64,000 nucleotides of DNA from Nitrospirota bacterium (GTDB lineage: Bacteria > Nitrospirota > Thermodesulfovibrionia > Thermodesulfovibrionales > Dissulfurispiraceae): NCBI GenBank assembly GCA_023476565.1, contig JAMCVZ010000041.1:1-64000 (forward strand), in the 5' to 3' direction. Position numbers and translations under genes: made by a program. Each line of letters starts with the position of its first letter. The stretch's first letter is position 1. The notes under the pieces are model-generated. The model worked only from the letters and a program-made list of their open reading frames with translations, had not been told where the DNA came from and did no database searches. Shown here piece after piece: positions 6,205-31,303 of the stretch.

Positions 6205-8196
6205 ATGGCTAATAAATATAAGGTAATCTTCCAGCCGGCCGGCCGGCGGGGAGAAATAGAGGAAGGCAAAACCATTCTGGAAGCTGCGCAGGCCCTCGGG
6301 GTCGACCTTGAAGCGCTGTGCGGCAACAAGAAGGTGTGTGGAAAATGCAAGGTAAGAATAGAGGAAGGCGAGTTTGAGAAGGACAACATGATATCCGGCA
6401 TGTCCCATATCACCCCTGCGGCGCCTTCCGAAGATGAATTAAAACATATCAAGCCTGAAGACGGGCCCGGCATACGTCTCGCCTGTTCGTGCGAGGTCCA
6501 CGGCGACCTGAAGGTGTTTGTGCCGGAAAGGTCGAGGGCCGGCAAGCAGGTGGTCCGCAAGGCGGCAAAGGAGCTTTCCATAGCCCTTGATCCCGCGGTC
6601 AGGAAATACATAGTGAAGCTCACGCCCCCCTCCCTGCACGACATGACAACCGGAGATTATGAGAGAGTGCTCAAGGCCCTGGAGGAGGCTTACGGCCTTA
6701 AAGATATGTTCTTTGACTACACGGCGCTCCTGGAGCTCCAGGATGCCCTGAGGGCAGGCGACTGGATGGCAACCCTGACCGTATGGATGGACAAGGAGAT
6801 CATTAAAGTCGAGCCCGGTCCCGTGGAAGTCTGCTATGGTCTCGCCGTTGATATAGGGACCACAACCTGTGTCGGCTACCTTTGCGATCTGAGCACCGGG
6901 AAGGTGATCAATACCGAATCGATGATGAACCCCCAGGTGCCCTACGGCGAGGACGTCATGTCGCGCATAACCTATGCGATGACAAATCCGGACGGGCTGA
7001 AAACAATGCAGGACGCAATTATCACGGGCCTCAATGAAATCATCGAGAAGGTGGTTGCCGAGGTGAAAAAAGACGGTCCGAATCCCGGCTTTGCGATAGA
7101 CGACCTCACCATAGTCTTCAATACGGCAATGCACCATATCTTTCTCGGGCTCAACCCGGTATACATCGGCCGCTCACCCTTTATCCCCGCTGTGCAGCGT
7201 TCACTGGACATCAAGTCGCGCGACCTCGGCCTGAAGATCAATCCTGCCGCCTACATCCATGTGCTGCCGATCGAGGCCGGTTTCGTCGGAGCGGACAATG
7301 TCGGCGTGCTCATCGCGCAGGAGCAGTACAACCAGGATGAGAACGTGCTGGTCATCGATATCGGGACAAACGGCGAATTGCTCCTCGGGAACAGGGACAA
7401 GGTGTGCTCGACTTCATGCGCAACAGGCCCCGCCTTCGAGGGCGCGCAGATAAAGTTCGGCATGAGAGCGGCGCCGGGCGCCATCGAGAAGGTAAAAATA
7501 GATTATGAGACAAAGGAACCCCGGTACAAGGTCATCGGCAAGGCTGACTGGCACACGCATGTTGAAGGAAAGATCAACGCCAAAGGCATATGCGGTTCCG
7601 CAATCATTGATGTCATCGCCGAGATGTTCAAGGCCGGCATTATCGACAAAACAGGAAAGTTTGTGATGAACCTCGGCACCAGCAGGGTGAGGACCAATGC
7701 CGAAGGTAAGCCAGAGTATGTTCTGGCATGGGCTGAAGAAACCTCCATCAATGCCGATATTACCGTCACCCAGGGCGACGTCCGCGCCCTCCAACTCGCG
7801 AAGGGGGCCCTCTATTGCGGCGCCAAACTGATGATGAAGAAGATGGGCATCGAGAAACTCGACAGGGTGGAGCTTGCCGGCGCCTTCGGCAGCCATATCG
7901 ACAGGGAGGCATCCCTGACCCTTGGCCTGTTCCCCGATGTCCCCATCGAAAAGGTCGTTGTCGTCGGAAACGCCGCAGGAGACGGCGCGAGAATGGCGCT
8001 CCTTAACAGAGCGAAACGCAAAGAGGCGGATGACCGTGCGCGCTGGGTGGAGTTCCTGGAAATTGCAACGGACCCCACGTTTGAGAAGGAGTTCATGCAA
8101 GCCATGCACATCCCGCATATGAAGGATAAATATACCAACCTGAAGGCTATGCTCGAAGCGCAGGGCGCACCTGTTGCCTCAAGCATAAAGGGATGA
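6205..8196 (+). CDS. Reductive activator of corrinoid enzymes (RACE; 2Fe-2S plus ASKHA ATPase)
   Basis: A 663-residue protein. The N-terminal domain is a 2Fe-2S ferredoxin with Cys39, Cys45 and Cys48 (LCGNKKVCGKCK) and a further Cys at 94 or 96 (RLACSC). From about residue 210 there is an actin/hexokinase-like ATPase domain: GLAVDIGTTTCVGYL, then VLVIDIGTNGELLLG and LAGAFGSHID. RACE proteins use ATP to reduce inactive Co(II) corrinoid to Co(I). It starts after AGGAGG and ends the methyl-transfer core. It is about the length of bacterial RACE proteins and lacks the C-terminal 4Fe-4S extension of archaeal RamA. Confidence 0.92.
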   Translation: MANKYKVIFQPAGRRGEIEEGKTILEAAQALGVDLEALCGNKKVCGKCKVRIEEGEFEKDNMISGMSHITPAAPSEDELKHIKPEDGPGIRLACSCEVHGDLKVFVPERSRAGKQVVRKAAKELSIALDPAVRKYIVKLTPPSLHDMTTGDYERVLKALEEAYGLKDMFFDYTALLELQDALRAGDWMATLTVWMDKEIIKVEPGPVEVCYGLAVDIGTTTCVGYLCDLSTGKVINTESMMNPQVPYGEDVMSRITYAMTNPDGLKTMQDAIITGLNEIIEKVVAEVKKDGPNPGFAIDDLTIVFNTAMHHIFLGLNPVYIGRSPFIPAVQRSLDIKSRDLGLKINPAAYIHVLPIEAGFVGADNVGVLIAQEQYNQDENVLVIDIGTNGELLLGNRDKVCSTSCATGPAFEGAQIKFGMRAAPGAIEKVKIDYETKEPRYKVIGKADWHTHVEGKINAKGICGSAIIDVIAEMFKAGIIDKTGKFVMNLGTSRVRTNAEGKPEYVLAWAEETSINADITVTQGDVRALQLAKGALYCGAKLMMKKMGIEKLDRVELAGAFGSHIDREASLTLGLFPDVPIEKVVVVGNAAGDGARMALLNRAKRKEADDRARWVEFLEIATDPTFEKEFMQAMHIPHMKDKYTNLKAMLEAQGAPVASSIKG

Positions 8197-18151: not shown

Positions 18152-19036
18152 CTACTCACTAAGGACACACATTCCCCACTTTCTCACGGTGCGGTTTTCG
18201 ATATTGCGGAATATGAGGTTTTCCACGCTGATGCCGATAAGAATAACCGTCAGCAGCCCGGCAAAAACATAGGCCACTTCCATTTCGTTCTTGTTCTCAT
18301 AAATGAACCACCCCAGACCGCCCTGCCCTGAGCTGACGCCGAACACGAGCTCTGCGGCGATCAGTGTACGCCATGCAAAGGCCCAGCCGATTTTAATTCC
18401 GGTCAGAATGGAGGGGAAAGCCGCCGGGACAAGGATTTTCGATATATACCCCCACCCGGAAAGGCCGTAGTTGTGGCCCACCATACGCAGGGTGTTGCTC
18501 ACGCCGCGGAACCCTGAATGCATATTGAGTGACACCGGCCATAAGACAGAATGGATCAATACGAAAATGATGCTGAAATTGCCGAGGCCGAACCACAGCA
18601 GGGAGAGCGGTAAAAGCGCGATGGCCGGCAGCGGGTTGAACATCGAAGTGAGCGTGTCCAGAAAGTCCGAACCGATGCGCGAGCTTACCGCAAAGATGGT
18701 CATCACTGTAGCCAGCGCAATGCCGGCAGCATAGCCCATCACCAGCAGCTTGAGCGAAACCATGGTGCGCGACAGAAGCCCTCCGTGGACCAGCGCATCA
18801 AAGAATGCGATGATAGTATCCTTGAAGGTCGGGAATATCAGGGGATTATCGGCCCATAACGCATAGCCCTGCCATAGGGCGGCCAGGAGCAGCAGGATAA
18901 CCGATTTGCGCAGGACGCTTATGTTGCTGATCTTCTCCCACAGGGTCAGCGGCTGGCGTATATCGCCTATCTTTCCCGCATCGAGTGTTTCGCGTATATA
19001 CTCCGGGCGCTCTGATAAGACATATTCATCTGGCAT
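18152..19036 (-). CDS. Sulfonate-type (SsuC/TauC-like) ABC transporter permease
   Basis: A 294-residue permease with an N-terminal cytoplasmic stretch of about 40 residues, then six helices. The EAA loop reads GLSGWGYISKILVPAAFPSI. ATG 19036 overlaps the ATPase gene by 11 bases and follows GGAGAGAG. It is paralogous to the permease at 11744-12502 but has a longer N-terminus. It works with the adjacent ATPase and binding protein. Confidence 0.88.
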   Translation of the reverse strand: MPDEYVLSERPEYIRETLDAGKIGDIRQPLTLWEKISNISVLRKSVILLLLAALWQGYALWADNPLIFPTFKDTIIAFFDALVHGGLLSRTMVSLKLLVMGYAAGIALATVMTIFAVSSRIGSDFLDTLTSMFNPLPAIALLPLSLLWFGLGNFSIIFVLIHSVLWPVSLNMHSGFRGVSNTLRMVGHNYGLSGWGYISKILVPAAFPSILTGIKIGWAFAWRTLIAAELVFGVSSGQGGLGWFIYENKNEMEVAYVFAGLLTVILIGISVENLIFRNIENRTVRKWGMCVLSE

Positions 19037-19850
19037 GGCTCTCTCCTTCCTCTATTACGTCTGCAAAAAGCATCTTGTGTATTTTGTCCTGCAAATCTGC
19101 AAATTCAGGCTGGTCCTGCGTCTGGTAGCCGTGCATGTGGCTGTTGAATTCCGCCTTCACCTGTCCGGGATGCGGTGAGAGGAGCAGGATGCGGGTGCCG
19201 ATAATAATGGCCTCTACTATCGAGTGCGTTACGAACAGCACCGTGAACTTCGTATCCTCCCAAAGCTGCAGGAGCTCTTCCTGCATCTTGCGGCGGGTCA
19301 GGGCGTCCAGGGCAGCAAAGGGCTCATCCATCAGGAGTATATCCGGCTCCATCGCCATGGCCCGGGCAATCGCCACCCTTTGCTTCATGCCGCCGGAAAG
19401 CATATGCGGGAATACGTCGGAGAACTGTGTCAGTTTGACCTTTTCGAGATATGACATCGCCTTTTCTTCCATCGCGCGCTTATTCATAGTGCCGGCGATC
19501 TTCAAAGGGAACAGGATATTCTCTTTGATCGTTTTCCACGGTATCAGTTGATCGAATTCCTGGAACACCATCATACGGTCAGGACCCGGCTCGACCACCT
19601 CATCCCCCCGCAGGGATATTTTGCCCTCAACCGGCTTTATGTAGCCGCCGACAGCCTTGAGCAGGGTCGACTTTCCGCAGCCTGAGGGCCCGAGCAGAAC
19701 AAAACGGTCTGACTTGCAGACATCGAAGTCCACCCGGTATGTTGCGGTGACCAGGTGCTCCTTTGTCTTATACTGCAGGGTCACCCCCCTGACATTCAGG
19801 AGCGGAGCAGCCAGGGCACCTTGATTCCGACTGGTTGAATCCAGACTCAT
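19026..19850 (-). CDS. Sulfonate-type (SsuB/TauB-like) ABC transporter ATP-binding protein
   Basis: A 274-residue ABC ATPase from ATG 19850, two bases after the binding-protein stop and preceded by GGGGAG. Walker A is GPSGCGKST, the Q-loop is VFQEFDQLIPW, the signature is SGGMKQR, Walker B is LLMDEPFAALD and the switch His is in FVTHSIVEA. An upstream in-frame start at 19901 lies inside the previous gene and is less likely. It energises the importer that belongs to the sulfolactate cluster. Confidence 0.9.
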   Translation of the reverse strand: MSLDSTSRNQGALAAPLLNVRGVTLQYKTKEHLVTATYRVDFDVCKSDRFVLLGPSGCGKSTLLKAVGGYIKPVEGKISLRGDEVVEPGPDRMMVFQEFDQLIPWKTIKENILFPLKIAGTMNKRAMEEKAMSYLEKVKLTQFSDVFPHMLSGGMKQRVAIARAMAMEPDILLMDEPFAALDALTRRKMQEELLQLWEDTKFTVLFVTHSIVEAIIIGTRILLLSPHPGQVKAEFNSHMHGYQTQDQPEFADLQDKIHKMLFADVIEEGESHAR

Positions 19851-19852
19851 AA

Positions 19853-20881
19853 TTAGCTCCCCGGAAGGTTGTGCACATTCGGGAAGAACATGTCCTTCCA
19901 TGTGCCCGGTTTAACTTTGATCGCACCGACCCTGTACATAAAGTCGGCATACTTCATTACATTGAGCGGCGTTATGGTGAATTGTATCAGAGGATCGCTC
20001 ATCATCTTGTAGATTTCATCGACCGACTGCTTTGTTTTGGTGATCTCGACATAGCTTTTTGCCGCTGCGTGCTTATCCTTATTGATCATGTTTATCGCCT
20101 CTTCCATGGCAGCGACTACGGCAGCATACGTCTTCGGATTGGCTTTACGGTATTCGCTCGTGGTCCAGACGAGATTAAACGAAGCCGGACCGCCCAGAAC
20201 ATCATAAGAGTTTACTATGGTGCGCACCCCGTGCTTCTCAAGCTCCTGGTACTGGAACGGGGGAGCGGTAAAGTGTCCGGAAATCTCCGACTTGCCGGAA
20301 AGGAGGGCTGTCATCCCGTCAGGATGCGCCATGGTTACGGTCAGGTGGTCGAGCTTCTGGTAATTGGCATCTCCGAAAGCCTTTGCAGCAGCCATCTGCA
20401 GGGTAACCGCCTGGATCGATACTTTTACCGCGGGGAGCGCAATACGGTCGCTTTCAGTAAAGTCCTTGATGTTCTTTACCTTCGGGTTGGAGGTGTTAAG
20501 GTAAAGGGGCATGGAGTTGATCGAGCCCAGCGCCTTAACATCGAAATTCCCTTTTGTTTTCGCCCATATCTTGATCATCGGGGCAACACCGCCTGAAACA
20601 AAATCCAGGCTTTTTGAAAGGAGCGCGTCATTCATATCAGCGCCGCCTGCCAGGGTCTTCCACGTTACGGTAATATCGCCCAAACCTGCCGCTTTCGCAT
20701 GCCTTTCAACCAGCTTGTACTTTTCCATAATCATAAGCGGCAGGTAGCTGATGCCGTATTGCCTTGCGAACCTTACCTCCTTATCCTCTGCAAAAGCCTG
20801 TCCAAAGGCCCCGCCCAGGACAAACACTCCGATAGCAGCAACCAGAATAAAGCTTAAATACTTAACGTTACACCTTCCCAT
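19853..20881 (-). CDS. Sulfonate-type ABC transporter substrate-binding protein
   Basis: A 342-residue secreted protein of the NMT1/SsuA-TauA type. Its signal peptide has a hydrophobic core at residues 8-28 and an AFAED cleavage region. The mature part shows VRFARQYGISYLPLMIMEKYKL and SKSLDFVSGGVAPMI. GGAGGAAGAC precedes the ATG. It lies 38 bases after the fumarase beta gene, so it is probably in the same transcript. The ligand is presumably the C3 sulfonate degraded by the upstream genes (sulfolactate, or a reduced precursor). That is inferred from the operon. Confidence 0.88.
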   Translation of the reverse strand: MGRCNVKYLSFILVAAIGVFVLGGAFGQAFAEDKEVRFARQYGISYLPLMIMEKYKLVERHAKAAGLGDITVTWKTLAGGADMNDALLSKSLDFVSGGVAPMIKIWAKTKGNFDVKALGSINSMPLYLNTSNPKVKNIKDFTESDRIALPAVKVSIQAVTLQMAAAKAFGDANYQKLDHLTVTMAHPDGMTALLSGKSEISGHFTAPPFQYQELEKHGVRTIVNSYDVLGGPASFNLVWTTSEYRKANPKTYAAVVAAMEEAINMINKDKHAAAKSYVEITKTKQSVDEIYKMMSDPLIQFTITPLNVMKYADFMYRVGAIKVKPGTWKDMFFPNVHNLPGS

Positions 20882-20919: not shown

Positions 20920-21507
20920 TTACACACCAAGCTTCTTATAGATTTCCGGAAGCCGCCTGACCGCCTCGGCCTTAACTTCCTCGTAAAGATGCCGGCCGTG
21001 ACTGTCCATGGCCACGGTCAGGGGGCCGAAGTTCTTTACCCTGAACTGGTAGAGGGCCTCGGGGTGCAGATGCTCCCAGTAGACGGCCTCCACCTCCTCG
21101 ATCTGCCGGGTTTCCAGGGCCGCCGACCCGCCGACGATCGCAAGGTAAACGGCCCCGTACTTCACCATGGCATCCAGGCTTCCCTGGTAAAGTCCGCCCT
21201 TGCCGATGATGGCCCGCACGCCGTACCTCCTGATCAGCTCCGGCGTGAAGCGCTCCATGCGCGTGCTCGTGGTGGTGCCCACGCAAATCTTCTCCCACTT
21301 GTCCCCGGCCTTGCGCAGGCTCGGTGCGGTATGGATGCAGGGCGCGCCTGCCAGGCTGACCGGGGGCTCGTGGTTTTGGTCAAACATATAAATCTGGGTC
21401 AAATCACGGATGCCGAAGAGCAGGCCGTCGAAGGTGACGATGTCCCCGGCCCTGAGTTTCCTGATCTCCTCTTCGGAAAAAGGCGATTTAAGATGATATT
21501 CCGCCAT
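20920..21507 (-). CDS. Class I (Fe-S) fumarase/tartrate dehydratase-type hydratase, beta subunit
   Basis: A 195-residue protein from ATG 21507 (GGAGAAAAGAGACC upstream), matching the C-terminal catalytic half of class I fumarases and TtdB. Motifs are AGDIVTFDG, GAPCIHTAPSLRK, GTTTSTRMERFTP and IIGKGGLYQGS. It pairs with the alpha subunit 20 bases upstream. The known reactions are hydration of fumarate to L-malate or dehydration of tartrate. Because it sits between bc-type genes and a sulfonate importer, an anionic sulfonate analogue such as sulfoacrylate is a possible substrate. That is a hypothesis only. Confidence 0.87.
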   Translation of the reverse strand: MAEYHLKSPFSEEEIRKLRAGDIVTFDGLLFGIRDLTQIYMFDQNHEPPVSLAGAPCIHTAPSLRKAGDKWEKICVGTTTSTRMERFTPELIRRYGVRAIIGKGGLYQGSLDAMVKYGAVYLAIVGGSAALETRQIEEVEAVYWEHLHPEALYQFRVKNFGPLTVAMDSHGRHLYEEVKAEAVRRLPEIYKKLGV

Positions 21508-21527
21508 GGTCTCTTTTCTCCTCGTAG

Positions 21528-22409
21528 TTAGTAACCATACTCGACGCTCCCGTCGGGACGTATGACGGCCCTGGCGCGTCTGGCCGGCCAGCACTGGGTG
21601 TTCACAGCAACCGGGTTCTGGGTGATGTGGGTGTAGGCCATCTCAATGTGCACGGCGAGTGTGGATACGTCCCCGCCCAGGCCCATGGGACCGCGTCCGG
21701 TGGCGTTGATGGCCTCCTCCAGTTCCTCTTCCATCGCGGCGATTTGCGGATCGGGGTTGCGCCGGCCCACGGGCCGCAGGATGGCGTCCTTGGCCAGCTT
21801 CACGACCAGGTCGGCAGTGCCGCCGATGCCGACGCCGATGATGCCCGGCGGACAGGGATTGGCCCCGCTCTCGACAACCGCGTCGAGGACGAATTTTTTC
21901 AGGGCCTTCACCCCGTGGGCCGGATAGAACATCTGCATCTTGCTCATGTTCTCCGAGCCCGAGCCCTTGGGCGCCATGAGGATGTCCAGAGTGTCGGAAT
22001 CCTCCTGGAAGTCCCAATAAATAACCGGCAGCCCCACGCCCACCGAGGTTTGGGGATTAACCCTCGTCAGGGGATGCGTCGAGCTGCTCCGGAAGGGAAA
22101 TTCGAGTGTCGCCCTTTTGGCCCCCTCGTAAAGGCATTTTTTGATCCTGGCGCCGTTCCAGGGAAAGGCAGAGCCGATCTTGACCTTATAGATGGGCAGG
22201 CCCGTGTCCTGGCAGATGAGCGTCTTGTCCCGGTCTGCAATTTCGATCGTCCTGAATATCGCCTCGAAGACCGACCGCGCCGTAGGCTTTGTCTCCCGGT
22301 CATACGCCTTCTTGAGGGCCGCCCTCACGTCCGGCGGCAGATCGCACAATGCCCGTATGTACGTTTGCTTCGCTGCTTCTTCAACGATCCGGTAGTCGAA
22401 GTCTTTCAT
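21528..22409 (-). CDS. Class I (Fe-S) fumarase/tartrate dehydratase-type hydratase, alpha subunit
   Basis: A 293-residue protein homologous to TtdA and the N-terminal half of class I fumarase. Three cluster cysteines are visible: Cys66 in ICQDTGLP, one in SGANPCPPGIIG and one in NTQCWPARR. Together they would bind the 4Fe-4S cluster that activates the substrate hydroxyl. VGIGGTADL and GRGPMGLGG are further family motifs. The start overlaps the cytochrome b stop (ATGA). Fumarate is the default substrate, and the operon context leaves room for a sulfonated analogue. Confidence 0.9.
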   Translation of the reverse strand: MKDFDYRIVEEAAKQTYIRALCDLPPDVRAALKKAYDRETKPTARSVFEAIFRTIEIADRDKTLICQDTGLPIYKVKIGSAFPWNGARIKKCLYEGAKRATLEFPFRSSSTHPLTRVNPQTSVGVGLPVIYWDFQEDSDTLDILMAPKGSGSENMSKMQMFYPAHGVKALKKFVLDAVVESGANPCPPGIIGVGIGGTADLVVKLAKDAILRPVGRRNPDPQIAAMEEELEEAINATGRGPMGLGGDVSTLAVHIEMAYTHITQNPVAVNTQCWPARRARAVIRPDGSVEYGY

Positions 22410-23902
22410 CTGGTTATCGCCTCCTCTGATTTTAACCCCACCTCACCTCCCCTTACGTTAAGGGGAGGAAGGGAGGGGTTATCGGCCTTGCTCTTTAGGA
22501 CGTCCTGCCCCTTCACGATCTTCATGGGATACTTACTGAAGTCGAGGGCCGCCAGGAACCCGGCCAAAGCCTGGAGGTCCTTGTCCGGTAGCTCGTACCC
22601 GGGCATGATCGACCAGGAGTGCACGGCCTGCGGATTCTTCACAAATTTGGACAGGTAGTCGATACTTTTGCCTTTTGCCGCGATGTTTGCCAGGTCGGGT
22701 CCGGTCCGGTGCCCGCCCCTGCCCTGAATCTGGTGGCAGTACGCGCACTCCCGGTCGGCATAAACGTGCAGCCCCCTCTCCTCAAGCGCCGTGAGCTGGC
22801 GGTCAGGGACCGGGATAACGTCGCCATAGGGCTTGACACCGGCAAAGGCCATGAGGCTCAAGTAAACGATTCCCATAACGGCAGTAATGCCGGCGGACAT
22901 GGAGAGAGGACGGTCAGCCGGACCTGATATCTTACCGGATATCTGTGGCCTCCCCAGGAACGGCACGGAGAAGATGAGGATGCTGCCGAGTGCGAAGAAA
23001 GCCAGGCTGACAATGCCTTCCCAGGGCCCCGAGAAGTAGGTCAGGAGTTGGAATATCCACATATAGTACCATTCGGGCCTCGGCAGGTAAGCATCGATGA
23101 TAGTTCCTGCGATATCCTCCCGCGGAATGCTGCCTATGATAGACAATCCGGTCAGGACAAGAAAAGCCACAGCAAAGACGGAAAGGCTACGGAAGGCATG
23201 TTCCGGATAGAAGCGATAGAGCCTGTCCTCCTGTCCGGAATTTGTATCATTATCTGCGCCGGCATGCCCCCCGGCCAGGCCGTGGATGCGCACAAGATAG
23301 ATGTGGAAGACGGCAAAGGCGGCGAGCAATGCGGGGAGCAGCAGGGTATGGATTGCATAAAACCTGGTCAGCGTCAGCCCGGTCACCGCATCGCCGCCGC
23401 GGATGGCCCTGGTGATGAAGTCGCCGATCACCGGGATGCCTTTCGGGATGTTGGTGCCGACCACGGTGGCCCAATAGGCCTTCATGTCCCAGGGGAGCAG
23501 ATAGCCGGTGAAGCCGAGGCCGAGCGTCACCAGGAGCAGGAATACGCCGCATATCCAGGTCAGTTCCCTGGGCGCCTTGTAGCTGCCCGAAAAAAAGACG
23601 GACAGGAGATGGACGCATACGACAAGGACCATCGCGCTCGCGCCCCAGTGATGCAGCCCGCGCAGGATCGACCCGGCGGACACCTCTTTCATGATGTAAT
23701 CGATCGATTGGTAAGCTTTGTCCGGCGAGGGGTTGTAGTACATCGCCAGGAAGATGCCGGTCACGGACATGAGGCCGAACAGGAGGAGGCACAGACTACC
23801 GAGTGTGGCCGACCAGCCTGTCTCCGGCGGAAGCTTCTTGAAAAAGAAGGGTTTCAGGTAAGGCCCCCAGCCTATGCGGTCAGGGAGTACATTATTGGCC
23901 AT
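22406..23902 (-). CDS. Cytochrome b of a bc-type complex with C-terminal cytochrome c domain
   Basis: The 498-residue membrane protein combines three parts. Residues about 1-215 are the four-helix cytochrome b core with heme histidines in LRGLHHWGASAM...HLLSVF and IHTLLL...FHIYLVRIHG. A subunit-IV-like part follows with the quinol-site variant PRPEWYYMW. The C-terminus is a class I heme c domain, CAYCHQ near residue 390, with distal Met in SIMPGYELPD. Such b-c fusions occur in anaerobic bc complexes. The ATG is one base after the stop of the SdhB-Rieske gene, whose last codons supply the ribosome-binding site. It should accept quinol electrons and pass them to the Rieske centre and heme c. 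Confidence 0.92.
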   Translation of the reverse strand: MANNVLPDRIGWGPYLKPFFFKKLPPETGWSATLGSLCLLLFGLMSVTGIFLAMYYNPSPDKAYQSIDYIMKEVSAGSILRGLHHWGASAMVLVVCVHLLSVFFSGSYKAPRELTWICGVFLLLVTLGLGFTGYLLPWDMKAYWATVVGTNIPKGIPVIGDFITRAIRGGDAVTGLTLTRFYAIHTLLLPALLAAFAVFHIYLVRIHGLAGGHAGADNDTNSGQEDRLYRFYPEHAFRSLSVFAVAFLVLTGLSIIGSIPREDIAGTIIDAYLPRPEWYYMWIFQLLTYFSGPWEGIVSLAFFALGSILIFSVPFLGRPQISGKISGPADRPLSMSAGITAVMGIVYLSLMAFAGVKPYGDVIPVPDRQLTALEERGLHVYADRECAYCHQIQGRGGHRTGPDLANIAAKGKSIDYLSKFVKNPQAVHSWSIMPGYELPDKDLQALAGFLAALDFSKYPMKIVKGQDVLKSKADNPSLPPLNVRGGEVGLKSEEAITR

Positions 23903-23903
23903 T

Positions 23904-25184
23904 TCAGCCCACCTCCACGAGCAGATGATCGGAGTCTACCCTGAATGGATACCGGTCAAGCGGCTTTGGCGGCGGTCCGGCGATGACCTTGCCATTGCGG
24001 TCAAAGGCCCCGCCGTGGCAGGCGCAACGGAACCGGCCGGCATTGCCGTCCCACTTCACCATACAGCCCAGATGGGTGCAACTCGCTTTGAAGCAGATGA
24101 TTTCATCGCCGGTGCGGGAGACGAGTACCCGCTCCGCCACCTGCTGCGTGTACAGACCGTTCTTGGTCTCATAATTTATCTTTATCGTAGTGACATCGCC
24201 GACCGGGATACTGCTCAAAGAGGCCGCGGGAACCCAAAGTCTGGGTGTCCTGGCGCGTGTGGGTCCGACAAAAGCGGCGCCCACCACGCCTCCCACGCCC
24301 AGGGCCAGGCACGTACCGAGGAGGCCGACGCCGACCTGGCTGATAAAGGTCCTTCTATCCATATTGCCGGCCATATTGCCGGCCATAGAGCCAGCCATCT
24401 CGCTTGCGCAGGAAGGCTGCGCAACAGCCGGCTGTTCGGCTTCAATGGTTTCAGGCTTTGCTTTAATGTGCTTGAGGGCAAGGCGCTGGATATATTTGAT
24501 AGCTCTCGTGCCGCTGATCCGCTTGGGGCAGACCTCGGTGCAGTTGAACTCGGTCCGGCAATTGTAACAGGAGGCCAGGACCCGGTCGAGGCGCTCCTCG
24601 AAGAGACCGTCACGGCTGTCGGCCAGGAGGGTAAAAGCCCGGTTCAGGGCTGCCGGCCCTGCATAACCCTCATGGTAGTGACACATGGTGCAACTCGACA
24701 CGCAGCAGCCGCAGGCAATGCAATCCGTGGCCATGCCGATATCCTGCCGCTCCCGGGAGCCGGGCCGGATGACCGCCGGTTCGGTAGTCTCCTCCCGGGG
24801 TTCGTAGAACGGCAGCGCCTCCTCATATTTTTTAAAGAAAGGTTCCATGTCCACGACAAGGTCCTTGATAACCGGAAAGTGATTGAGCGGACGGATAGTT
24901 ACCTCCTTGCCCTGCGGGATGTGCGATACGTTGGTCTTGCAGGCCAGGCCTTCCTTCCCGTTGATGACCATGCCGCAGGAGCCGCACATGTTGACGCGGC
25001 ATGCAAAGCGAAAGGACAGGGTCGGGTCCTGCTCCCGCTGGATGCGCAGGAGCACATCCAGGATGGTGGTCGTAGTCTCATCCTGAATATTCAACACGTA
25101 ACTGTCGAAGTGGCCCTCGCCGCCTTGTTGCGGGTCATAGCGGAACACCTTGATATTGCGCACGCCCCCGGATGTCTGTGCCAT
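23904..25184 (-). CDS. Fusion of succinate dehydrogenase-type iron-sulfur subunit with a Rieske protein
   Basis: A 426-residue single reading frame. Residues about 1-230 form an SdhB/FrdB protein: a 2Fe-2S set CRVNMCGSCG...LAC, a 4Fe-4S set CIACGCCVSSC, and a third set CYNCRTEFNCTEVCP. A linker with the tandem MAGSMAGNMAGNM leads to DRRTFISQVGVGLLG, a Tat-like anchor helix. The C-terminal 100 residues are a Rieske domain with CTHLGC and CACHGG ligands. The SdhB part would be cytoplasmic and the Rieske part on the outer face. ATG 25184 follows GAGGAG, and a GTG at 25208 is an alternative. I see no internal stop and no ribosome-binding site before the Rieske part. Confidence 0.9.
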   Translation of the reverse strand: MAQTSGGVRNIKVFRYDPQQGGEGHFDSYVLNIQDETTTTILDVLLRIQREQDPTLSFRFACRVNMCGSCGMVINGKEGLACKTNVSHIPQGKEVTIRPLNHFPVIKDLVVDMEPFFKKYEEALPFYEPREETTEPAVIRPGSRERQDIGMATDCIACGCCVSSCTMCHYHEGYAGPAALNRAFTLLADSRDGLFEERLDRVLASCYNCRTEFNCTEVCPKRISGTRAIKYIQRLALKHIKAKPETIEAEQPAVAQPSCASEMAGSMAGNMAGNMDRRTFISQVGVGLLGTCLALGVGGVVGAAFVGPTRARTPRLWVPAASLSSIPVGDVTTIKINYETKNGLYTQQVAERVLVSRTGDEIICFKASCTHLGCMVKWDGNAGRFRCACHGGAFDRNGKVIAGPPPKPLDRYPFRVDSDHLLVEVG

Positions 25185-25198
25185 AAATCTATTCTCCT

Positions 25199-25276
25199 CG
25201 ACAAGCACCGGGGACAGTCCCTATTCTACGACTTCGTCCGTAAATAGGGACAGTCCCCTGTGTCCTGGTGCTTGTC
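25199..25276. repeat. Palindromic repeat family B, copy 2, extended hairpin within the operon
   Basis: The core GGGGACAGTCCCTATT (25210-25225) pairs with AATAGGGACAGTCCCC (25243-25258). Here the palindrome is extended by outer arms GACAAGCACC (25200-25209) and GGTGCTTGTC (25267-25276). It fills the gap between the membrane-anchor gene and the SdhB-Rieske gene and would form a strong hairpin in the operon mRNA. The core is nearly identical to the reverse complement of 40136-40184. Confidence 0.85.
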
Positions 25277-25843: not shown

Positions 25844-27568
25844 TTATTTTTTATACTTCCGGCATTCCTCAAGAGACTTGTATTTAAAGACTACAGGTTT
25901 CTTCTCGGCCACCGGCCGCCCGTCATCGCTGCGCTTCAGGAAGATGTTGAACAGGCCGTAGTCGTCGCGCTGCTCGGGAAAATCCTGCCTGAAGTGGGCG
26001 CCGCGGGTTTCTTCCCTGAGCCGCGCTGAAAATGCAACTATTCTGGTGGCGTCGATCATACTCCGGATGTCGAGGTAGGTATTGTACATCATGTTATATA
26101 CAGCGCCACCCGTAACACCGGCCGTCTCAACCGCTTCGGCAATATCCTCGATCTCGCTCAGGGCCCCGGACAATTCAGGTTCCTTACGGGCCACTCCCAC
26201 CTTGTTCCAGTTCAACTCCTGGATGGCTTTGCGCAGCTCGAATGGATTGGCCCCCCGGGAGCGCTGGAGCGGCGCTTCGAGTCTGGCCATAAACTCCTCG
26301 ACCTGGCCGCGCCTTGTCTCCTTGATGGAGCGGTTGCCGCCGGACAAATACTTGCCCAGGGCCTTGCCTGCCTGCCTGCCATAGACACATGAATCGCAGA
26401 TGCCGTTGCCGCCCAGGCGGTTGGCGCCATGGACGCCGCCTGCGTCCTCACCGGCAACAAAGAGTTTCTCCAGGGTCGACCTGCCGCCGGTATCGATAAC
26501 CGCGCCGCCCATGAAAAAATGAGCGGTCGGCGAAACCGGCACCCGGCCGCGGGCCAGATCATAGTTGAACTGCCGGCACCGCTCGGCCATTCCCGGAAAA
26601 GTCTTCAGCACGAAGCCGGCCCCCAGGTGCGAGGCGTCGATCTGCACGCCGCCCTCCGGGCAAGCCCGGCCGGCCATCATCTCCAGATAGGAAGACCGGC
26701 TGACCACATCGCGGGTAGCGCGTTCCCCGACCTCCGGGGCGTAGTTGAGCATGTACCGTTCCCCGGAACCGTTGAAGAGATGAGCGCCGGCGCCGCGCAG
26801 GCCTTCCTCCAGGAGAGCCCCCGCAACAACGCTGCCGGGAACAATGAGGCCCGTGGGATGGAACTGGAGCATCTCCATATCTTTCATGATGACGCCGGCA
26901 CGATAGAGCATGGCTATGCCGTCCACGGATTTCTCCGGGCCCGGCGCATGGAAGCGGTAATGGGTGGGGCCGCCGCCTGTGGCGACCAGGGTCGCGGCTG
27001 CTTCGGCGACAATGAACTCGCCCCGCCGCATATCCAGGAGCAATGCGCCGGTGACTATCTCGCCCGGCCCATCGAGAAGGAGCTCCACTGCCCGGCATTC
27101 CTGAAGGACAGGGAACCCGCGTTTCATGACTTGCTCGGTGAGGCGGCTGATGATTTCGATCCCGGTGAGGTCGGCTTTGTGCACTGTGCGGTCGAAGGAT
27201 TGTCCGGCAAAGGCCTTCTGGTGAATGGTTCCGTCGGGGTTGCGGTCGAAGAAGCAGCCGAATTTGGTCTCCATCTCCTTTATGGTCGGAGTCGCCTGCT
27301 CGACCAGGGTCCTGGCCAGGTACTGATCGTTAATATATTGTCCGCCCTTAAGAGTATCCATGAGGTGTTTCTCATGGGAATCCCGGGGGGTCAGGACAAC
27401 GTTGAAACCGCCCTGCACCATGCGGCTGCAGCCCCCCTTGCCCTTCAGGGCTTTTGTCACGATGAGGATGTCCAGCTCCGGGTTGATCTCGTGGGCGTAC
27501 AGCGCAGCCATCTGCGCTGCCGCGCCCATTCCGATTATGAGCAAGTCTGCTTTGACCTTGGATACCAT
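25844..27568 (-). CDS. Succinate dehydrogenase/fumarate reductase-type flavoprotein subunit
   Basis: A 574-residue FAD protein of the SdhA/FrdA family. The FAD site is LLIIGMGAAAQMAAL. Active-site residues conserved in the family are visible: His in LQFHPTGL, Arg in TRDVVSRS, His in HFFMGGAVID, and Arg in HGANRLGGN. Two points are odd. The segment that normally carries the FAD-linking His reads GGCSRMVQGG, with no His. The Thr-Glu pair of the substrate loop reads Glu-Glu (LLEEGLRGAG). The reaction is therefore oxidation or reduction at a succinate-like substrate, but the exact substrate is open. It is 16 bases downstream of suyB, in the same direction. Confidence 0.88.
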   Translation of the reverse strand: MVSKVKADLLIIGMGAAAQMAALYAHEINPELDILIVTKALKGKGGCSRMVQGGFNVVLTPRDSHEKHLMDTLKGGQYINDQYLARTLVEQATPTIKEMETKFGCFFDRNPDGTIHQKAFAGQSFDRTVHKADLTGIEIISRLTEQVMKRGFPVLQECRAVELLLDGPGEIVTGALLLDMRRGEFIVAEAAATLVATGGGPTHYRFHAPGPEKSVDGIAMLYRAGVIMKDMEMLQFHPTGLIVPGSVVAGALLEEGLRGAGAHLFNGSGERYMLNYAPEVGERATRDVVSRSSYLEMMAGRACPEGGVQIDASHLGAGFVLKTFPGMAERCRQFNYDLARGRVPVSPTAHFFMGGAVIDTGGRSTLEKLFVAGEDAGGVHGANRLGGNGICDSCVYGRQAGKALGKYLSGGNRSIKETRRGQVEEFMARLEAPLQRSRGANPFELRKAIQELNWNKVGVARKEPELSGALSEIEDIAEAVETAGVTGGAVYNMMYNTYLDIRSMIDATRIVAFSARLREETRGAHFRQDFPEQRDDYGLFNIFLKRSDDGRPVAEKKPVVFKYKSLEECRKYKK

Positions 27569-27583
27569 AAATTTCCTTGCCTT

Positions 27584-28747
27584 TTACGCGCTCCTGTAAA
27601 GCTTTGTCAGGACGAACTCGCGATGTCCGAGCGCCTCTGCCGCGGTGAAGCGGCCGTTGCAGGTCCTCAGCATTACTTCTATGAGCTTGTCGCCCGCCTC
27701 ATCGAGATTCAGCTCTCCCCTGAGTATGCCGGAAACGTCCAGATCTATATGCTCGCTCATGGTCGAACAGGTAAGCGGGTTGGCTGACAGCTTGATAACC
27801 GGCTCGATGGGGTTGCCGATGATGTTTCCCTGCCCTGTCGGGAAGATATGAACCACGGCGCCTGATGCTGCCCATAGGGTTACGGCCTCTGCTGCTGCTG
27901 ACGACGTATCCATATACCAGAGGCCTTTGCCCTTCGGCGCCTCTGCCGGTTTGAGCACGCCCACGTACTTCGCCTTCTTGCCGATCTTCTGGAGGTTTCC
28001 GAAGGCCTTTTCCTCTATGGTCGTCAGACCGCCCCTGATGTTTCCCTTGGTCGGCTGTGAGCTGGACAGGTCATCGGTCTTTTCTTTCAGGATGAAGTCG
28101 TTGTACTCATTCCAGGTCTTTATAAAGGCCTCGCCGACTTCGGGTGTTGCCGCCCTTGTTTTGCAAACCATTTCAGCACCGGTGATCTCAGAGGTCTCAC
28201 CGAATGAGGCGGTGACGCCCAACTCTACGACCTTGTCGATGAGATTGCCGACAGTCGGGTTGGAAGCAAGTCCTGAGGTCGTATCGGACTCGCCGCATTT
28301 CACCGAAATGTAAAGTTCATCAAGCGAGCACTCTGTTTTCTGTATTTCCGATGCCCATTGTACATATTCCTTCGCCTGGCGTGCTGCGGCTGCAATGGTG
28401 TTGATATCACCGCTCCGCTCGATGGCGAAACCCTTTACCGGCTTTCCGGTCTTGGCAATACCCTGCACAACCCTGTCGGTCCATTCAGGCTCGATGCCGA
28501 TGACGACTACCGCCGCTACGTTCGGATTCGCCCCGGTCCCGATGATGGTCCTGAAGAAGAGCTCCAGGTCCTCGCCGAACTGCAGGCGCCCGTAAGGGTG
28601 CGGAATTGCCATGGTTCCTTTGATGTTGTTGGCAACGGCTTCGCACGCCGCATTCGAGAGGTCATCCAGCGGCAGGATGATGACATGGTTCCTGATGCCA
28701 ACCCTCCCGTTTTCACGACGATAACCCATAAATTTAGGAATTTTCAT
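27584..28747 (-). CDS. suyB: (R)-sulfolactate sulfo-lyase, large subunit SuyB
   Basis: The 387-residue protein belongs to the UxaA/altronate dehydratase C-terminal family. The start [20 protein letters not shown], the Cys-containing [11 protein letters not shown] and the segment [15 protein letters not shown] fit SuyB. With SuyA it cleaves (R)-3-sulfolactate to pyruvate and sulfite in an iron-dependent reaction. An altronate or galactarate dehydratase is the main alternative. The adjacent separate small SAF subunit, slcC and comC make SuyB the best call. Three bases separate it from suyA. Confidence 0.88.
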
Positions 28748-28750
28748 TTT

Positions 28751-29029
28751 CTACCACCTCTTTGTCTTAAGATTATGAATGTGGACGTGTTCACCTTTTC
28801 TTATGAAAGCCACGACTTTGCCGATGTCATGGCCGTACTTCAATATGGTATCTCCTGACTTGAAATCCGTAAGGGCGATCTTGTGCCCGAGCGGAATATC
28901 CATGAGCGCTTTGACCTCAACCTTTTTTCCGCTGTCCATCATAAGGCCCTTCGCTGTCTCACCTGCCTTGATGTCCACTGTTGCGACACCTACGGTGTCT
29001 TCCTTCTCGTGAACCAGAAACTGAATCAT
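28751..29029 (-). CDS. suyA: (R)-sulfolactate sulfo-lyase, small subunit SuyA (SAF domain)
   Basis: A 92-residue SAF-domain protein (UxaA N-terminal type): MIQFLVHEKEDTVGVAT, DIPLGHKIALTDF and ILKYGHDIGKV. The start at 29029 is fixed by AGGAGGAGC directly upstream. An ORF extension to 29110 adds 27 residues without homology. SuyA and SuyB as two adjacent genes in this order is the usual sulfolactate sulfo-lyase arrangement. The released sulfite could enter dissimilatory reduction or leave through the TSUP exporter. No sulfite reductase is encoded in this window. Confidence 0.88.
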   Translation of the reverse strand: MIQFLVHEKEDTVGVATVDIKAGETAKGLMMDSGKKVEVKALMDIPLGHKIALTDFKSGDTILKYGHDIGKVVAFIRKGEHVHIHNLKTKRW

Positions 29030-29147
29030 ATGCTCCTCCTCTTCAGAAATAGTCACAGTCGAAGCGAACCCGGAATCCCGGAACAGGTCTGCCCTGACTG
29101 CACTTTCCATAGTTTAATTGCCTTGTTCATACGTTAAGGCTTTGCGC

Positions 29148-30116
29148 TCACCCTCTTTTCGGCTTCGGGAAATTGACATGGTTTTTTGCCCCCTTCCCGG
29201 ATAGCACGCCGGCCACATCCCTGCACACGGAAGCGACTACCCTCTCCTGGCCCTCTCCGGTAAATGCGGCAATATGCGGGGTCAGGATCACGTTGTCCAT
29301 CCCGGAAAGAGCGCCCTTATCCGGCGGCTCCTTCAGGCGGACATCCAATGCCGCGCCCGCGATCTTTTTATCCCTGAGGGCGCGGACCAAAGCTTCCTCA
29401 TCAACAACTTCACCCCTTGATGTATTGATAAAGAAGGCAGCAGGTTTCATCCTGCTGAACTTCCCGTAATCGAACAGCCCCCTTGTTGCGGAAGTGAGGG
29501 GGAGATGGCATGAGATGAAATCGGCCTGCGCCAGAAGCTCATCAAGCTCCACCATACGGGCGCGCAGCTCCGAAACGATTATCGCGTCGGGATTTGCATA
29601 CTCGTCATGGGCGATAATGTCCATCCCGAAGGCCCTGGCTCTCACCGCCGTGCGGTAGCCGATACGCCCCAGGCCCACGATCCCCAGCGTTTTTCCGTAA
29701 AGCTCGATGCCGGTAAATTCCCGGCGCTTCCATCCGCCCGCCCTGGTATCGCGGTCTGCCGCGGCAATCTTCCTCGCAAGGGAAAGCATCATCCCGAGCG
29801 CAAGCTCCGCAACCGATATCGAATTCTGTTCCGGCGCGTAAGCGACTACAATCCCGGCATTCGTTGCGGCTTCGGTATCAACGTTGTCAAGCCCTGCGCC
29901 GGCGCGGCCGATCACCTTGAGGCTGCGGCCTGCTGCTATCACGTTTGCGTTCACCCTTGTCTGGTTCCTTACGATCATTGCCCGGAAGTCGGGGACCATC
30001 GCAAGCAACCGGTCCGGCGACTTCCATAATTCCGGCTCAAACGCGACATCGAAATTCTTTTTCAGGACTTCCATCTCCGGGCCGGTGACATTCTCCGTGA
30101 CCAGCACATCACGCAT
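29148..30116 (-). CDS. slcC: (S)-sulfolactate dehydrogenase SlcC-like (D-2-hydroxyacid dehydrogenase family)
   Basis: A 322-residue NAD-dependent dehydrogenase of the 3-phosphoglycerate dehydrogenase type. The nucleotide site is GIVGLGRIG. The catalytic Arg-Glu-His residues appear in NTSRGEVVD, VRLKEPP and LTPHIAA. In the known sulfolactate route SlcC oxidises (S)-sulfolactate to 3-sulfopyruvate, which ComC then reduces to (R)-sulfolactate for SuyAB. The family alone does not specify the substrate. Overlap with comC by eight bases and the downstream suyAB make SlcC likely. No ACT domain is present, unlike biosynthetic SerA. Confidence 0.83.
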   Translation of the reverse strand: MRDVLVTENVTGPEMEVLKKNFDVAFEPELWKSPDRLLAMVPDFRAMIVRNQTRVNANVIAAGRSLKVIGRAGAGLDNVDTEAATNAGIVVAYAPEQNSISVAELALGMMLSLARKIAAADRDTRAGGWKRREFTGIELYGKTLGIVGLGRIGYRTAVRARAFGMDIIAHDEYANPDAIIVSELRARMVELDELLAQADFISCHLPLTSATRGLFDYGKFSRMKPAAFFINTSRGEVVDEEALVRALRDKKIAGAALDVRLKEPPDKGALSGMDNVILTPHIAAFTGEGQERVVASVCRDVAGVLSGKGAKNHVNFPKPKRG

Positions 30117-31173
30117 TGCCCTGCGCTCCGTCTATGGTGAATGGAATCTTGAATTCCTCACACAAGGTTTTGAATTCCCGAAGCGTTTCAGCTCCGATGG
30201 GGATGCCTTTTTCGCGGTTCTCGCATACGCGCTTAAAAGAGCGCTCGCCGGGTATCAGTATTTCATCGACACCGGGCCGCTTGCTGCAGGCCTTGATCTC
30301 GTCGATCATGTTATCGATACGTTTTTTGAAGACAGAAACGTCCATAAAGGCATCAATATCGAGAAGGCAGAAAAAGTGGCCCACATCCTGCTTTCTATCC
30401 ATATCCTTGTACATGGAGCCGATGGAACTGCCGAAAGCGGCTCCGGAAAGGACACCGGAGAAGGCATCAACCATAAGGGCAAGGGCGTATCCTTTGTGTC
30501 CGGCCATGGTCAGGACCGTTCCCATGAGTGCTTTTTCCGTATCGGTTGTGGGATTGCCGTCGATATCCAACGCCCAGCCGGGCGGGATTTCGCTTCCTTT
30601 CTTATGGGCGGCAATGATATTGCCGCGTGCTACAATCGACGTGGAGAGGTCGATCTTTACAGGATAGCTCTTACCGGTGGGGAAGGATACTGCAAGGGGA
30701 TTCGTTCCAAAATAGGCCTGGCGGCTTCCTGCGGGCGCCGTTGACGGTTCGGCATTGGTAGTGGCAAACAGGATCATGCCCTCCCGGGCGGCCCTGTTGC
30801 AATAATACGAGAGCGCGCCGAAGTGCTGTGAATTCCGGATAGTTGCCGCTGCAATGCCTGAAGACCTCGCCATCGGGATCAGGGTTTCAAGGACTTTGGA
30901 AGCCTGGACCTGCCCCAAACCGTTCCCGGCATCTACCGCCATTACGAGGCCCCGTTTCCTGTCGATGGCGATTTCAGCCCGGGGGTCTATCAATCCTTTT
31001 TGTATGCGGCGGATGTAAATATTCAGGCGGGAAACGCCGTGGGTAGAAGTACCCTGGATATCCGCATCTACCAGAGAATCTGAAAAGATGCCGGCATCCT
31101 GCTCAGGAACGCCTGCTGCCTGTGCGATTTCTGCAACCAGCTTTTTAATTATCTGTGATTGATAGCGACTCAT
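30109..31173 (-). CDS. comC: (R)-sulfolactate dehydrogenase ComC-like (Ldh_2 family)
   Basis: A 354-residue protein of the malate/sulfolactate dehydrogenase family (Ldh_2). SLVDADIQGTSTHGVSRL carries the conserved catalytic His, IRNSQHFGALSYYC a second family motif, and GHKGYALALMVD the nucleotide region. ComC interconverts sulfopyruvate and (R)-sulfolactate. The start at 31173 (MSRYQSQII) is chosen over 31275 because a near-consensus sigma-54 promoter lies at 31201-31216, which would fall inside the longer ORF. It heads the whole sulfolactate run. Confidence 0.85.
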   Translation of the reverse strand: MSRYQSQIIKKLVAEIAQAAGVPEQDAGIFSDSLVDADIQGTSTHGVSRLNIYIRRIQKGLIDPRAEIAIDRKRGLVMAVDAGNGLGQVQASKVLETLIPMARSSGIAAATIRNSQHFGALSYYCNRAAREGMILFATTNAEPSTAPAGSRQAYFGTNPLAVSFPTGKSYPVKIDLSTSIVARGNIIAAHKKGSEIPPGWALDIDGNPTTDTEKALMGTVLTMAGHKGYALALMVDAFSGVLSGAAFGSSIGSMYKDMDRKQDVGHFFCLLDIDAFMDVSVFKKRIDNMIDEIKACSKRPGVDEILIPGERSFKRVCENREKGIPIGAETLREFKTLCEEFKIPFTIDGAQGNA

Positions 31174-31200
31174 TACCAACTTATTACCCGCGTAGTGAAA

Positions 31201-31216
31201 TGCAATCCCTGTACCA
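31201..31216 (-). promoter_or_regulatory. Sigma-54 promoter for the comC-slcC-suyAB run
   Basis: On the minus strand the sequence reads TGGTACAGGGATTGCA, matching the -24/-12 consensus TGGCACG-N4-TTGCA at all core positions (TGG, AC, TTGCA) with correct spacing. Transcription would begin near 31190, about 17 bases before the comC ATG. The divergent gene encodes a sigma-54 activator. Confidence 0.8.
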
Positions 31217-31303
31217 GCATAGAGGACTTTTGCCAACCTGTTGATAAACCACGATTCTGCTTTTAGCAGCCTCAAGGTACGACTATCAGGCGCCGAATTT
31301 TAG

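Follow-up and report, generated by a model that had tools for sequence, protein, structure and literature searches.

Canonical complex II of the C/D type is held in the membrane by two anchor subunits, and in mycobacterial Sdh1 a Rieske-type cluster lies within the membrane subunits of the succinate dehydrogenase (SDH). Among the respiratory complexes, complex II is the one most rarely seen in supercomplexes, and only one of the respirasome structures covered by a 2023 review contains it (PMC10238741). Complexes II and III do share one assembly in Tetrahymena (I-II-III2-IV2) and in Perkinsus (CII2CIII2CIV2; PDB 9fq7), both of which are mitochondrial and held together non-covalently. A covalent arrangement has been engineered for complexes III and IV, the in-frame fusion of their subunits giving active supercomplexes in Rhodobacter (PMC7876108). 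Most bacterial Rieske proteins are held by uncleaved Tat anchors; in Actinobacteria the Tat anchor stands behind other transmembrane (TM) helices, and Tat inserts the last helix only (PMC7317946, PMC13186574). Here we describe a gene family of anaerobic bacteria in which the iron-sulfur subunit of complex II (SdhB) and a Rieske protein form a single predicted chain, for which a covalent link between complexes II and III is well supported at the sequence level. In our search of open full-text papers no earlier account of a II-III fusion came to light; each component is familiar, but their covalent II-III combination is not.

The window, the whole stretch of 64,000 nucleotides analysed here, belongs to a Nitrospirota genome (G000) and carries an operon in which sdhA, a single gene for a 3-TM anchor, an sdhB::Rieske fusion, a cytochrome b::c gene and fumarase genes follow one another on one strand (Table 1). 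A sequence-only reading of the window had proposed that one frame joins a complete SdhB to a Tat-like anchor and a Rieske domain, and that it lies between an SdhC-like anchor gene and a cytochrome b-haem c gene. Both proposals are confirmed, the first by the open frame itself, by Pfam and NCBIfam profiles and by 17 fused relatives, and the second by the identity of the two neighbours. The fusion frame is uninterrupted from its ATG at 25184 to its stop at 23904, with a GTG at 25208 as an alternative possible start; the operon contains no N, and the window sequence is identical to the genome copy. Pfam matches to Fer2_3 (aa 10-117), Fer4_8 (aa 152-223) and Rieske (aa 317-413) each lie above cut-off, as do those to the SdhB models PRK05950 and TIGR00384 of NCBIfam. 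All 11 cysteine ligands of the three SdhB clusters are present (11/11), and the Rieske half, which is of the bc type, retains the C-H / C-H cluster ligands together with the disulfide cysteines. On the opposite strand an open frame of 457 aa (23874-25247, plus strand) spans the whole fusion gene; it is most likely a shadow frame of G+C-rich DNA and no gene.

Table 1 Features of the fused operon in the window (window coordinates; aa, residues of the fusion protein unless a whole protein is meant)
Feature	Position	Strand	Basis or remark
sdhB::Rieske fusion gene	23904..25184	-	426 aa plus stop; fused also in 17 other genomes
SdhB half, aa 1-240	24465..25184	-	[2Fe-2S], [4Fe-4S] and [3Fe-4S] ligands complete; fold match to E. 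coli SdhB
Linker, aa 241-276, ~36 residues	24357..24464	-	predicted disordered; contains 12-bp tandem MAGS/MAGN/MAGN
Internal twin-arginine transmembrane anchor, aa 277-305, RR.F motif	24270..24356	-	invariant RR, model helix, hydropathy
Rieske domain, aa 317-426, CTHLGC...CACHG	23907..24236	-	Pfam PF00355 above cut-off
SdhA/FrdA flavoprotein	25844..27568	-	dicarboxylate-site residues kept, FAD-linking His missing
Single 3-TM anchor subunit, Sdh_cyt family, 113 aa	25277..25618	-	Pfam, alignment
Cytochrome b (b6-type histidine spacing, PEWY) fused to mono-haem cytochrome c	22406..23902	-	
Class I fumarase, alpha subunit	21528..22409	-	profile matches
Class I fumarase, beta subunit	20920..21594	-	profile matches

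A sequence search for FrdB and Rieske domains in one chain found the same fusion in 17 other genomes of Nitrospirota and Desulfobacterota (phylum labels from the titles of the named records and, for the window, from our reading of the sample), so that close homologues are not always two genes and single fused chains recur. The first search, of 100 relatives, returned a fusion of 83% identity in Nitrospirae bacterium FK_Sedi_A_Bin.59 (G084), in the same gene order as the window (sdhA - anchor - sdhB::Rieske). The contig of G084 ends within the Rieske domain in an assembly loop, where a 127-base repeat of its own upstream sequence (L006 2648-2774, repeated from 2238) produces a false frame end; only aa 1-392 of this copy, in window numbering, entered the analysis. 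Contigs of GTDB genomes, scanned next, yielded full-length fusions in a Deltaproteobacteria MAG (L048) and a Desulfarculaceae MAG (L049), both at 53-54% identity, and searches around these two genomes and across their phylum raised the total to 18 with the window, a count from chosen groups and mostly draft assemblies that is not a prevalence. No relatives were found among the viral contigs searched. In every cluster long enough to show it, the fusion adjoins the cytochrome b-c gene and SdhA. A lost stop or a frameshift could in principle have joined two genes on paper, the window genome being an assembly of 73 contigs; the chance of this is negligible, since the 17 other fused genomes show neither a stop nor a frameshift at the junction and in two of them, G413 and G798, the fused gene lies within contigs as long as 4.48 and 5.31 Mb, which rules out an assembly or sequencing artefact for the family.

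On the SdhB tree the fusions fall on two separate lineages with different operon orders. Lineage 1 comprises 14 genomes with the order A-C-B::R-b(c) and fumarase nearby in most, and lineage 2 comprises G948, G1066, G1109 and G1111 with the order A-B::R-b(c)-C. A single fused clade on this tree is rejected by the AU test (p = 0.0037 with 14 fusions and 0.0005 with 18, at a cost of 41 log-likelihood units), and to judge from the tree the fusion rests on two distinct SdhB backbones. A single clade of fusions is not rejected by the Rieske tree (p = 0.08), and the cytochrome b tree speaks neither for nor against one (support 36/11); the cytochrome b of lineage 1 forms one clade with support 99/99. 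Either the fusion arose on two occasions, or a Rieske-cytochrome b pair, whether fused or adjacent, would later have recombined with another SDH; a single origin followed by losses or by replacement of SdhB may also underlie the pattern. The SdhB tree places G000 and G084 beside G931 and G950 (99/91), the latter two from a Desulfobacterota sample, and only G000 and G084 are fused among the 177 genomes of the window's Nitrospirota order; the simplest reading is that the fusion entered Nitrospirota by horizontal transfer.

Complex II and bc genes also stand together in unfused form. The order R-b(c)-A-C-B is found in G488, G525, G588, G898 and G919, A-B-R-b in G1052 and G1019, and C-A-B-R-b in G945, G1209 and G1113, in which the sdhB and Rieske frames overlap. 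This repeated bringing together of sdh and bc genes, whichever scenario of origin holds, argues for a functional coupling of the complex II and bc modules in these phyla. Across such unfused clusters (L185, L186, L187, L143, L184; L099, L101, L103, L144, L145) complex II and bc genes stand in at least three orders that differ from those of the fusions, and as far as we searched we found no description of these clusters.

Compared with complex II of the SdhB family, the fused system retains the three cluster sites, an SdhA with the dicarboxylate residues and an Sdh_cyt anchor; it differs in the C-terminal TM segment and Rieske domain added by the fusion, in having a single 3-TM anchor gene and, in lineage 1, in an SdhA that lacks the FAD-linking His. 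The SdhC-like gene is the sole anchor gene, and the clusters encode one 3-TM anchor in place of the two subunits of the C/D type. His 50, His 70 and Asp 81 are invariant in the alignment of single 3-TM anchors, and the single anchor may work as a homodimer or have its second place filled by another helix. The partner on the other side of the fusion resembles the Rieske/cytochrome b complexes (b6f/bc1) in its Rieske ligands, in the b6-type spacing of its four haem-b histidines (two pairs, His 84/85, 98, 185 and 200), in PEWY (at 276) and in a c-type haem domain with one CxxCH site; it departs from them in the 240-aa cytoplasmic SdhB on the N-terminus of the Rieske protein and in the union of cytochromes b and c in one chain. 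Unlike in mycobacterial Sdh1, the Rieske domain here is a separate soluble head of the bc type.

The operon is bordered by a UxaA/GarD-type lyase pair (large subunit 27584-28747, small subunit 28751-29110), which lies next to the fused operon in nine of the 14 lineage-1 genomes (window; L071, L104, L049, L096, L105, L107, L139, L140) with 68-91% identity in the large subunit, and because it adjoins the operon in so many of them it probably shares a pathway with it. Together with an SsuA-like ABC transporter, a PGDH-like 2-hydroxyacid dehydrogenase and an Ldh_2 enzyme for which L-sulfolactate dehydrogenase is the best model, though below cut-off, the lyase pair makes up a set (27584-31275 and 18152-20881 of the window) that looks like an organosulfonate (sulfolactate) pathway; the window genome also encodes a DsrA that passes the curated cut-off. 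Three close pairs of sites (16392/16457, 25211/25247 and 40137/40173; six sites against 0.01 expected) carry the palindrome GGGACTGTCCC; one pair sits between the anchor gene and the fusion, and the pairs are REP-like elements. A RACo-type corrinoid activation protein at 6205-8196 (plus strand) hints at corrinoid-dependent methyl transfer nearby.

Both halves of the fusion have recognisable folds. A single-chain AF2 model based on 54 homologues from the fetched loci reaches a mean pLDDT of 85 and was used in place of a 14-row model in which the cubane domain had a pLDDT of 63; in it the SdhB fold is followed by a linker that falls below 50 at residues 255-277, by a helix that spans 277-305 and by a Rieske fold. 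In a Foldseek comparison the TM-score against E. coli SdhB (1nek_B) is 0.88 and the C-terminal half matches b6f Rieske proteins, and no PDB chain with both halves was found by sequence or among the listed fold matches. The twin-arginine motif directly precedes the single TM helix and is predicted to form an export anchor with it. SdhB functions at the cytoplasmic face of the membrane and Rieske anchors have an N-in/C-out orientation, and on this basis the fused chain would be topologically consistent, with SdhB in the cytoplasm and the Rieske domain outside. Since the N-terminal half is cytoplasmic and gives no signal peptide, the Rieske half might conversely stay unexported and act as an extra electron relay of the SDH in the cytoplasm; this is highly improbable given the invariant twin-arginine directly before the TM helix, the cytochrome b-c gene in the same operon and the use of uncleaved Tat anchors by the Rieske proteins of bc complexes (PMC7317946). 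Judged by the actinobacterial precedent, an internal Tat anchor is possible in principle: polytopic QcrA likewise carries its Tat anchor internally and not at the N-terminus, although its extension consists of two or four Sec-placed TM helices, where the fusion has a soluble Fe-S protein (PMC7317946).

The SdhB cluster motifs and the internal RR are kept in 18/18 fusions and the Rieske ligands in 17/17 readable at that site. In five close pairs dN/dS amounts to 0.03-0.12 for SdhB, 0.08-0.28 for the Rieske domain and 0.07-0.34 for the linker, values that show purifying selection on each of the two domains and on the linker. The linker is the fastest-changing part of the gene, varying in length by whole codons with the frame kept. 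Its rapid change and its disorder in the model would also suit a gene that is transcribed as one and yields two proteins, the Rieske protein being freed by an internal start upstream of the RR or by proteolysis within the linker and the two complexes being independent, and an in-frame ATG does stand two codons before the RR in G000, G084, G407 and G413. We consider such a split unlikely: the frame is maintained across linkers that differ by whole codons, the ATG of the window is not preceded by a Shine-Dalgarno-like sequence, the linkers of G798 and G931 contain no start codon, and in G495, G950 and G948 no start lies nearer than 27 codons to the RR. An internal start is thereby ruled out as a general explanation by G798 and G931 and is unlikely in the other three, while a separate Rieske product could arise from the internal ATG of the window, and proteolysis within the linker may still release one.

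The linker of the window also contains MAGSMAGNMAGNM, a 12-bp unit in 3.3 copies, which had been taken as a sign of a repeat-mediated gene join. This view did not hold, for none of the 17 relatives has the tandem (G084, at 83% identity, has GAREMDRRAFF), and a repeat found only in G000 is no evidence of the join; a repeat-mediated join at the MAGN tandem is ruled out on this ground. By this comparison MAGSMAGNMAGNM is a later expansion of the linker and no scar of the join.

The flavoprotein bears on the direction of electron flow. The dicarboxylate-site residues H237, R286, H350 and R384 are invariant in 12 SdhA proteins. At the site of the covalent-FAD His the window and every lineage-1 member read have GGCSRMVQGG, whereas RSHS..AQGG is found in lineage 2, in the unfused C-A-B-R-b set and in the other SDH of the window genome (contig 21). 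Succinate oxidation requires the flavin to be covalently bound, a bond that shifts its potential upward by ~100 mV (PMC10238741). Because its SdhA is without the FAD-linking His, lineage 1 may favour fumarate reduction or operation at lower potential, while lineage 2 looks like a normal succinate dehydrogenase. The best NCBIfam match of the window SdhA is TfrA, a fumarate reductase, below cut-off. With the thiol:fumarate reductase TfrAB the system thus shares an SdhA closest to TfrA among NCBIfam equivalogs (below cut-off) and a C-terminal extension on SdhB; it differs in that the extension is a TM segment and a Rieske domain and in that a membrane anchor is present, and the CCG (HdrB-like) domains of TfrB have no Pfam match in the fusion.

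These features of lineage 1, taken with the need for a covalent flavin in succinate oxidation, leave a somewhat less than even chance that the tether is the same but the flavoprotein runs as a fumarate reductase, or with a partner of lower potential, fed with quinol made or shared by the bc module, for example by a bc complex running in reverse from c-type cytochromes at the expense of the proton-motive force. The FAD His of the lineage 2 fusions speaks against it, as does the normal role of a bc complex as a quinol oxidase. The neighbour genes in L048, which we take to resemble those of 2-oxoglutarate oxidoreductase and succinyl-CoA ligase, fit oxidative flow equally and are compatible with either direction of the cycle. 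As a general acceptor oxygen is ruled out, because a COX1-family protein is missing in six of the 12 genomes tested, five of those six being fused. The claim of the sequence-only reading that one polypeptide links a quinone-reducing flavoprotein to a bc module thus stands in one part: the conserved fusion, the Tat anchor, the co-inherited cytochrome b and the workable topology uphold the covalent link, while 'quinone-reducing' is not established for an SdhA without the covalent-FAD His.

Taken together, we regard it as probable that the gene encodes a covalent complex II-III tether working with the operon's own cytochrome b-c, and thereby a built-in supercomplex. Several points count against a tether: the window has the internal ATG before the RR, canonical SdhB and Rieske genes are present elsewhere in the window genome, and we know of no other case in which a Tat anchor follows a folded Fe-S domain of the cytoplasm. 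In the tethered complex the N-terminal SdhB half would join SdhA and the 3-TM anchor in a complex II-type succinate/fumarate:quinone enzyme on the cytoplasmic side, the flexible linker would connect to a Tat signal-anchor that stays uncleaved and makes a single passage through the membrane, and this anchor would deliver the folded Rieske head to the outside to serve the operon's cytochrome b-c, the tether keeping quinone local between complex II and the bc-type complex III. As bc complexes are dimers, the expected stoichiometry would be (CII)2-(CIII)2. Assembly, quinone hand-over and electron direction are what we infer here, and the topology is deduced from the Tat motif and homology. The Tetrahymena and Perkinsus supercomplexes likewise hold complexes II and III in one assembly, whereas the present link is predicted to be covalent and is bacterial. 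With the engineered cytochrome c1-CcoP of R. capsulatus it shares the in-frame joining of subunits of two complexes on the inner side of the membrane, that protein being, in contrast, a laboratory construct that unites complexes III and IV (PMC7876108).

There is, in our estimate, about an even chance that the family represents a natural encoded II-III supercomplex whose link arose at least twice and in which confined quinone couples a succinate/fumarate enzyme to a bc complex, perhaps handling an otherwise unfavourable menaquinone step within one machine. The fusion suggests that two respiratory enzymes have been hard-wired where others use loose contact or free diffusion, and a natural covalent II-III link would offer a clean test of whether supercomplexes channel quinone. 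If the tethered arrangement is true, a Tat signal-anchor works behind a large folded cytoplasmic domain. The finding also touches on the question of how the succinate/fumarate couple is managed with menaquinone in anaerobes.
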